Of a stretch of DNA of 38,703 nucleotides, positions 31,141-32,381 are shown piece by piece (position 1 is the first letter of the stretch; the number at the start of each line of letters is the position of its first letter). This DNA is from an uncultured archaeon. GTDB lineage: Archaea > Halobacteriota > Methanosarcinia > Methanosarcinales > Methanoperedenaceae. Under the pieces are notes generated by a model. That model had not been told where the DNA came from, made no database searches, and saw only the letters and a list, made by a program, of their open reading frames with translations. The stretch lies in NCBI GenBank assembly GCA_902386135.1, contig CABMIB010000068.1, positions 1 to 38,703 of the forward strand, given 5' to 3'. The position numbers and the translations under genes are program-made.

Positions 31141-31150
31141 TTTATAATAC
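31141..31150 (+). promoter_or_regulatory. TATA box of the exported DUF5667-type gene
   Basis: TTTATAATAC would start transcription near 31170, leaving a leader of about 55 nt that contains the RBS hairpin. The remaining 257-bp intergenic region upstream (from 30969) shows no other structure. Confidence 0.45.
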
Positions 31151-31195
31151 TATTAAGACAGTAAGTATGCTTATATTCCGGGGAGTTTAATCAGG

Positions 31196-31223
31196 TATCA
31201 CGGCGACATGCCGTAAGGTGATA
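31196..31223 (+). promoter_or_regulatory. Nested inverted repeat enclosing the ribosome-binding site
   Basis: Outer arms TATCAC (31196-31201) and GTGATA (31218-31223) pair perfectly, and inner arms ACGGC (31200-31204) and GCCGT (31210-31214) pair around a GACAT loop. The 3' outer arm is part of the Shine-Dalgarno AAGGTGAT, 2-8 nt before ATG 31226. In the mRNA this hairpin would mask the RBS, as in translational control elements or thermometers. Confidence 0.55.
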
Positions 31224-31225
31224 AT

Positions 31226-32332
31226 ATGGCAGAAAACGTATGGTCAAGAATATTTAAGACGGGATTAAGTAACATAATCCTGGCAGGTATAATCCTGCTG
31301 ATGCTGGCGTTTACCGTAGGTGTTGGCACGGCACAACCGGATCATTCAGCATCGGTAAATACAAAAGATGATGATAATATAACACCCTATGATGGACCGA
31401 TTGGTCCTGACAATGCTTTATACGGATTAAAAATCGCATTTGAGGATTTTGATGAATCCTTCACATTTAATGCAAGTGAAAAGCTTCAGAAAAAGATAGC
31501 TCATGCTAATCTGCGTTTAGCTGAAGCTGAAGGACAATTAAAAAAGAGGAACGCTCAGGCTGCTGAAAGAGCCCTTGAGAGGTTCAATGAAAAAAACACA
31601 GAAGCAGATGATCTAATTTCCAGCTCTTCTGACATCAATTCCGGGCTTCTTCATGCAGAGGAAATGATCAAAAAACACCAGCAGATTCTGTACAATCTCA
31701 CTCAGTTACACCCTGATAACCCAGGACTTGCAAGAGCTTACAGTAACAGCCTGGAACTTGAACAAAAGTTTAACAGGAGGGTATCGGAGCGAGAGGCAAG
31801 AGGAGAACATAACGAAGAAAATGTAGCAATCAAAGCAGAAATCTTTGATAATAATACGGAAGTCAAAGTCAGCGTTAATTTCAAGTCCGTCAATGTCACG
31901 AATTTCTCTATAGCGAATGAAATTCTTGACAAATTCCAATTGAGTGCAGAGAATATCAACACTCTACTGACCGTCGAAAATATGGATGATGGAGAGTTAA
32001 ACACCGAACTTGGGGCTGATGCCAAGATTGAGGATGGATTCTCTATAATCAATGCTGAATATAAGTTCCCGCTGTTGAATACTACCAGCAAGGACGGCAT
32101 CGTTGATGGAATTTATATGAATCTTCATGCCCTAACAATCGAGAACGTAACAAACACACTTGAAATTGAGAATATGACAAAAGTATCAGAAAATAAGAAA
32201 GATGAGAAAGCTGCAATAAAGCAAGCGGCACATGAAATCAAGGATGAGAAGCAAAAGGAGAAGGAGCAGAAGCAGGAGGAGAAAACGGCAATAAAACAAG
32301 AGAGACGTGAAAACAATGGAAGAGATAGGTGA
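31226..32332 (+). CDS. Exported DUF5667-type coiled-coil protein
   Basis: 368-aa secreted or membrane-tethered protein. N-terminal signal/anchor helix at 15-36 (SNIILAGIILLMLAFTVGVG) ending GTAQ; then GPDNALYGLKIAFEDFDESFTFNASEKLQKKIAHANLRLAEAE, the hallmark of the archaeal DUF5667 family, with helices to about residue 200. A beta-rich segment (about 203-310) with several NxS/T sequons precedes a Lys/Glu/Gln-rich coiled tail (about 315-368, KDEKQKEKEQKQEEK). Function of the family is unknown. Its RBS sits in a hairpin and its stop codon lies within a strong terminator stem, so it is expressed as a single-gene transcript. Confidence 0.75.
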   Translation: MAENVWSRIFKTGLSNIILAGIILLMLAFTVGVGTAQPDHSASVNTKDDDNITPYDGPIGPDNALYGLKIAFEDFDESFTFNASEKLQKKIAHANLRLAEAEGQLKKRNAQAAERALERFNEKNTEADDLISSSSDINSGLLHAEEMIKKHQQILYNLTQLHPDNPGLARAYSNSLELEQKFNRRVSEREARGEHNEENVAIKAEIFDNNTEVKVSVNFKSVNVTNFSIANEILDKFQLSAENINTLLTVENMDDGELNTELGADAKIEDGFSIINAEYKFPLLNTTSKDGIVDGIYMNLHALTIENVTNTLEIENMTKVSENKKDEKAAIKQAAHEIKDEKQKEKEQKQEEKTAIKQERRENNGRDR

Positions 32333-32350
32333 ACTTTCACCTATCTTTTT
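32323..32350 (+). terminator. Intrinsic-type terminator: 10-bp stem, ACTT loop, T-run
   Basis: AGATAGGTGA (32323-32332) and TCACCTATCT (32337-32346) are perfect complements, followed by a T-run to 32350. The gene's TGA stop (32330-32332) is inside the left arm. This is the clearest terminator in the window. Confidence 0.8.
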
Positions 32351-32381
32351 CATCCTTTTAAGTCAATTATTAAAAGCTGGG

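Follow-up and report, generated by a model that had tools for sequence, protein, structure and literature searches.

A conserved hairpin at a set distance from the TATA box of archaeal DUF5667 genes, tentatively placed at the mRNA 5′ end

Does the base-paired leader of an archaeal gene for an exported protein hide its ribosome-binding site, or does it serve another purpose? The gene lies in a 38,703-nt stretch of a Methanoperedenaceae contig (the window; G000:C68 in our genome set), and its product carries a PF18915/DUF5667 domain (E 7e-14). Two perfect complementarities of 6 bp (outer) and 5 bp (inner) precede its ATG at 31226, and a TATA-like run lies further upstream, as the first-pass annotation of this DNA had described. 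That annotation proposed that the outer helix masks the Shine–Dalgarno (SD) sequence in a leader of about 55 nt, making it a candidate translational switch or thermometer. The features concerned are:

31226–32332, plus strand: gene for an exported DUF5667 (PF18915) protein of 368 aa
31196–31223, plus strand: outer helix, 6 bp, TATCAC (31196–31201) with GTGATA (31218–31223)
31200–31214, plus strand: inner hairpin, ACGGC (31200–31204), loop GACAT, GCCGT (31210–31214), predicted mRNA 5′ end
31202–31212, plus strand: conserved hairpin core, GGC-N4/5-GCC
31216–31221, plus strand: SD sequence AGGTGA, kept in homologues and predicted to be single-stranded in a short leader

The outer helix is ordinary. 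It shares A31200 and C31201 with the inner helix, so that the two cannot both form fully and are alternatives rather than nested, as had been supposed. Folded, the 31165–31260 stretch is no more stable than its shuffled versions (z = +0.17; 109 of 200 fold equally well), and in every context tried (5′ ends 31165–31190, many 3′ ends) the outer helix had a probability of 0.0–0.33, against mostly 0.6–0.97 for the inner one. A perfect 6-bp partner for a ribosome-site hexamer occurs within 55 nt at 36 of 581 SD genes (6%) across 1.31 Mb of this genome, and SD pairing of the DUF5667 gene in a 55-nt leader ranks at the 50th percentile among genes with an SD. Nor is the masking helix kept in related leaders: the perfect outer arm is found only in the window gene and its closest homologue (in G008), and one of its pairs is broken in 19 of the 26 leaders that were aligned.

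The promoter places the leader differently from the earlier proposal. The elements are:

31141–31150, plus strand: upstream TATA-like run TTTATAATAC, assessed by leader comparison and TATA-to-start spacing
31158–31176, plus strand: conserved promoter block ACAGTAAGTATGCTTATAT, with TATA box CTTATAT at 31170–31176
31199–31202, plus strand: predicted transcription start region, mode 31200, 22–25 nt after the TATA heptamer

Between 12 and 19 of the 19 block positions are common to most DUF5667 homologue leaders, both within the genus and across a second family of its order, and many homologues do not retain the TTTATAATAC run as a TATA box. The 16-mer GTAAGNATGYTTATAT occurs in its own genome only here and at one other place, apparently coding sequence. 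Homologue leaders read, in order, the promoter block ACAGTAAGNATGCTTATAT, about 25 unconserved bases, GGC-RAMA(T/C)-GCC, GAGGTGA and the start codon. Directly upstream of the TATA box, ACAGTAAGNATG (31158–31169) is kept in the DUF5667 promoters of two archaeal families. It is a candidate for a regulator or BRE-type site confined to this group of genes.

We calibrated the distance from TATA box to transcription start on leaderless (SD-less) genes that start with ATG, using 1.31 Mb of this genome. TATA-like heptamers peak 22–25 nt before the ATG of these genes (20 seen versus about 1.4 expected per position), in agreement with the 19–22 nt reported between promoter and start in Methanolobus (PMC5378194). 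Applied to CTTATAT at 31170–31176, this calibration predicts a start at 31199–31202, at the beginning of the inner stem. With its fixed spacing in relatives, CTTATAT is more likely to be the promoter than TTTATAATAC, although the latter may serve as a possible second promoter with a start at about 31170–31173. The leader would thus be about 25 nt long, not 55 nt, and the outer helix is predicted to lie mostly or partly upstream of the transcript start, outside the mRNA. A start downstream of 31196, the result that the first-pass annotation itself had named as contrary to SD masking, is what the calibration predicts. The literature that we searched yielded no transcription start or half-life data for the Methanoperedens genus.

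Leader-only folds of such a short mRNA leave the ribosome-binding site open. From 5′ ends 31198–31202 the outer helix has a probability of at most 0.04, the inner hairpin forms with a probability of 0.90–0.98 and the SD is 0.92–0.98 unpaired; the corresponding values for the window's leader-only mRNA are about 0.98 for the inner hairpin and about 0.97 unpaired for the SD. Across the predicted mRNAs of the family, the SD is on average 0.72 unpaired, that is, mostly open. In folds extended by coding sequence, that sequence can pair with the start codon and with part of the SD of the window gene. By inspection, the closest homologue (G008_C122) differs where this pairing occurs, so the pairing is probably not a feature of the family.

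The inner hairpin exceeds chance, as its conservation indicates. About 28 DUF5667 genes of the genus are preceded by the conserved form GGC-RAMA(T)-GCC, with a loop of 4 or 5 nt. In all 23 members with the promoter block, the distance from TATA block to GGC is 24–27 nt. Among these 23, mean pairwise identity is 0.88 for the SD, 0.77 for the block, 0.74 for the four leading bases of the loop and 0.40 for the spacer; the 0.99 of the arms is circular, since the arms themselves served to pick the members. The combined hairpin and SD pattern matched 26 times in 31 genomes (19 of them at the DUF5667 family) versus 5 times for the reversed pattern. A covariance model (R1) gave 26 matches with E below 1e-5 in the 31 genomes, all before DUF5667 genes and exactly one strong match in the window's own genome; its next-best matches had E of 7e-4 or weaker. 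By sequence comparison, then, the hairpin is conserved, specific to DUF5667 genes and at a fixed distance from the TATA box, and the exported-protein gene does carry a structured, selected leader element in the form of the inner hairpin.

Pair counts in the GGC-type stem show no covariation beyond shuffles, since the core is invariant; the argument is built on position, specificity and replacement stems. At the same place, an unrelated stem (TTGCATC/GATGCAA) occurs in the G004 and G019 homologues and another (AGCACAA/TTGTGTT) in four of six members of the second family of the order; these replacement stems begin 21–24 nt after the block. The best stems fall at offset 21–26 in about 21 leaders versus a mean of 5.3 in shuffles, the sequences being related. 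There are exceptions: in a five-member subgroup (G003, G017, G007_C81, G016_C53 and G021_C47) the hairpin is retained without a TATA block at the usual spacing and may therefore be internal, the stem is lost in G027, and about eight members have no hairpin. Not every member, then, has the element, and its 5′-terminal position is not demonstrable in all that do. A genome-wide habit of 5′-terminal hairpins was considered and rejected: among SD genes that have a TATA box, offset 21–26 holds 5 stems against 0–6 in other six-base windows, which is no enrichment.

A short frame begins at an ATG within the hairpin's 3′ half (GGCAAAATGCC) and reads ATG CCG TAA in the window (31208–31226). In about 12 homologues the frame runs for 8–10 codons and overlaps the main start as ATGA; by inspection it is absent or stops early in many others, and we rejected it as a conserved feature.

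DUF5667 homologues are present in 39 of the 100 genomes searched (its own counted), often several per genome, and the homologous loci in public genomes belong mostly to Candidatus Methanoperedens; the literature searched made no mention of DUF5667. One homologue (G001:C28, 1135–2586) lies in a 483-aa open frame with an N-terminal CxxCH haem-binding-like motif (CGVCHVAP), possibly a fusion to a c-type cytochrome. Another (G008:C112, 1501–2001) has promoter, hairpin and SD intact together with an in-frame stop codon, which marks it as a decaying paralogue. A contig labelled Patescibacteria (JAHIVD010000075.1) carries a typical Methanoperedens DUF5667 gene with its full leader and is probably misbinned.

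The gene also has a terminator of its own, as the first-pass annotation had stated:

32316–32353, plus strand: terminator hairpin with U-tract
32324–32345, plus strand: terminator core, GATAGGTGA (32324–32332, including the stop codon), ACTT, TCACCTATC (32337–32345)

Its stability is pronounced (z = −6.6 for 32300–32365). The motif ATAGGTG-N-CACCTAT marks DUF5667 3′ ends at all 15 of its places in 31 genomes. The 3′ hairpin is conserved in the DUF5667 family at a variable distance from the stop codon, shows compensatory changes at several pairs, and accompanies most of the genes that carry the 5′ hairpin. Within its 3′ arm, UCACCU is complementary to AGGUGA, the SD in the leader of the same gene.

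Our leading explanation, held tentatively, is that a short stem-loop at, or about 2 nt from, the 5′ end of an mRNA with a leader of about 25 nt, followed by a strong unpaired SD, protects that end in the manner of Escherichia coli ompA, which combines a 5′ stem-loop with a strong SD (Emory, Bouvet and Belasco 1992, as cited in PMC7509114). With the hairpin most likely at the mRNA 5′ end and the SD open, an end-protector or a protein-binding site is favoured over a lid on the SD. We infer that the transcript starts at the hairpin, as we infer stabilization and any regulator. The transcript would begin at the hairpin, and the terminal structure would hinder 5′-to-3′ decay, for which the window's genome encodes an RNase J-type enzyme (TIGR00649). 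The open SD would recruit ribosomes and the conserved 3′ hairpin would guard the opposite end, yielding a stable message for the exported protein. In bacteria, 5′-terminal stem-loops counteract mRNA decay, and archaeal aCPSF2 is a 5′-to-3′ exoribonuclease (PMC3792030). Placement within a few nucleotides of the 5′ end is predicted by the TATA spacing and by the 23 members with the block, and not by the five-member subgroup; the ribosome-binding site is left free, as in an ompA-type stabilizer, in leader-only folds and in the family mean. Against end protection count the stem core of only 3–5 bp and a conservation of arm and loop sequence beyond the demands of a pure end-blocker, as well as the exceptions among members, the 5′ stem's pair counts no higher than in shuffles, the lack of genome-wide enrichment and the potential pairing of start codon and SD with coding sequence.

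That same sequence conservation, in the arms and in the A-rich RAMA loop, would be expected if the hairpin were instead the site of an RNA-binding protein or small RNA controlling translation or stability of DUF5667 mRNAs, possibly by autoregulation. We regard this as the less probable but still serious alternative: the hairpin is confined to one gene family and is retained in the subgroup where its 5′ position is not obvious, but unrelated stems take its place in other lineages, no binding partner was found, and the window and seven homologous loci gave no Rfam match at gathering score, which also led us to reject a known Rfam RNA or riboswitch. A role in DNA, as a dyad operator for a repressor overlapping the start or as an element of the initiation region, appears unlikely. 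The dyad straddles the predicted start and adjoins a highly conserved, family-specific promoter block resembling a regulator site; however, half-sites separated by 4, 5 or more nt are rarely tolerated by a dimeric DNA binder, nearly all loops are A-rich on the sense strand, and the stems differ in other lineages. An operator of fixed spacing was rejected, as loop length varies. It is more improbable still that the leader has no function and was inherited when the gene was duplicated with its promoter. The members are paralogues and orthologues whose shared ancestry inflates conservation, but the spacer beside the hairpin is randomized while promoter, hairpin and SD are kept (the figure for the arms being circular).

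SD masking by a longer mRNA from the upstream TATA-like box, the original proposal, we consider very unlikely. The box-like run is there, an mRNA beginning at 31196 or further upstream would let the SD pair partly (0.39 unpaired from 31196), and Methanolobus psychrophilus offers a precedent in temperature-dependent alternative starts with predicted RBS-masking stem-loops (PMC5378194). Against this, the outer helix stays a minority structure even in long leaders, the pairing of the SD there is average for SD genes, the perfect arm is private to two genes, and the predicted starts, like the family mean, leave the SD open. The thermometer model is supported by neither position, folding nor conservation. 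The slimmest chance goes to a two-ended control in which UCACCU of the 3′ hairpin swaps partners with the SD, the 5′ hairpin positions the leader and the 3′ end regulates the gene's own translation start; covariation between the SD and the 3′ arm is seen at most once (G012_C256).

These results correct the promoter and leader assignment of the DUF5667 gene and define a family-specific cis-element in uncultivated methane oxidizers, consisting of promoter block, 5′ hairpin, SD and 3′ hairpin. If end protection is right, the element would be a clear candidate for a 5′-terminal mRNA hairpin maintained by selection in archaea, a domain in which little is understood of how messages decay from the 5′ end, and its roughly 28 natural variants could be used for testing.

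SD-sequestering RNA thermometers form a general class in which a hairpin lies next to the SD; the DUF5667 hairpin likewise adjoins the SD, but its conserved stem does not contain the SD. Methanolobus psychrophilus, also an archaeon of a methanogen lineage with structured leaders and with a promoter 19–22 nt from the start, has cold-selected 5′ UTR isoforms with predicted RBS-masking stem-loops (PMC5378194). There, masking comes from longer leaders made at alternative starts, whereas the DUF5667 leader is predicted to be short with an open SD. With E. coli ompA the element shares a hairpin predicted to lie a few nucleotides from the mRNA 5′ end, the strong open SD that follows it and an exported or envelope protein as the product. 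It differs from ompA in being archaeal, with enzymes of the RNase J/aCPSF type invoked rather than an RNase E-type pathway, and in its short conserved GGC-loop-GCC sequence.
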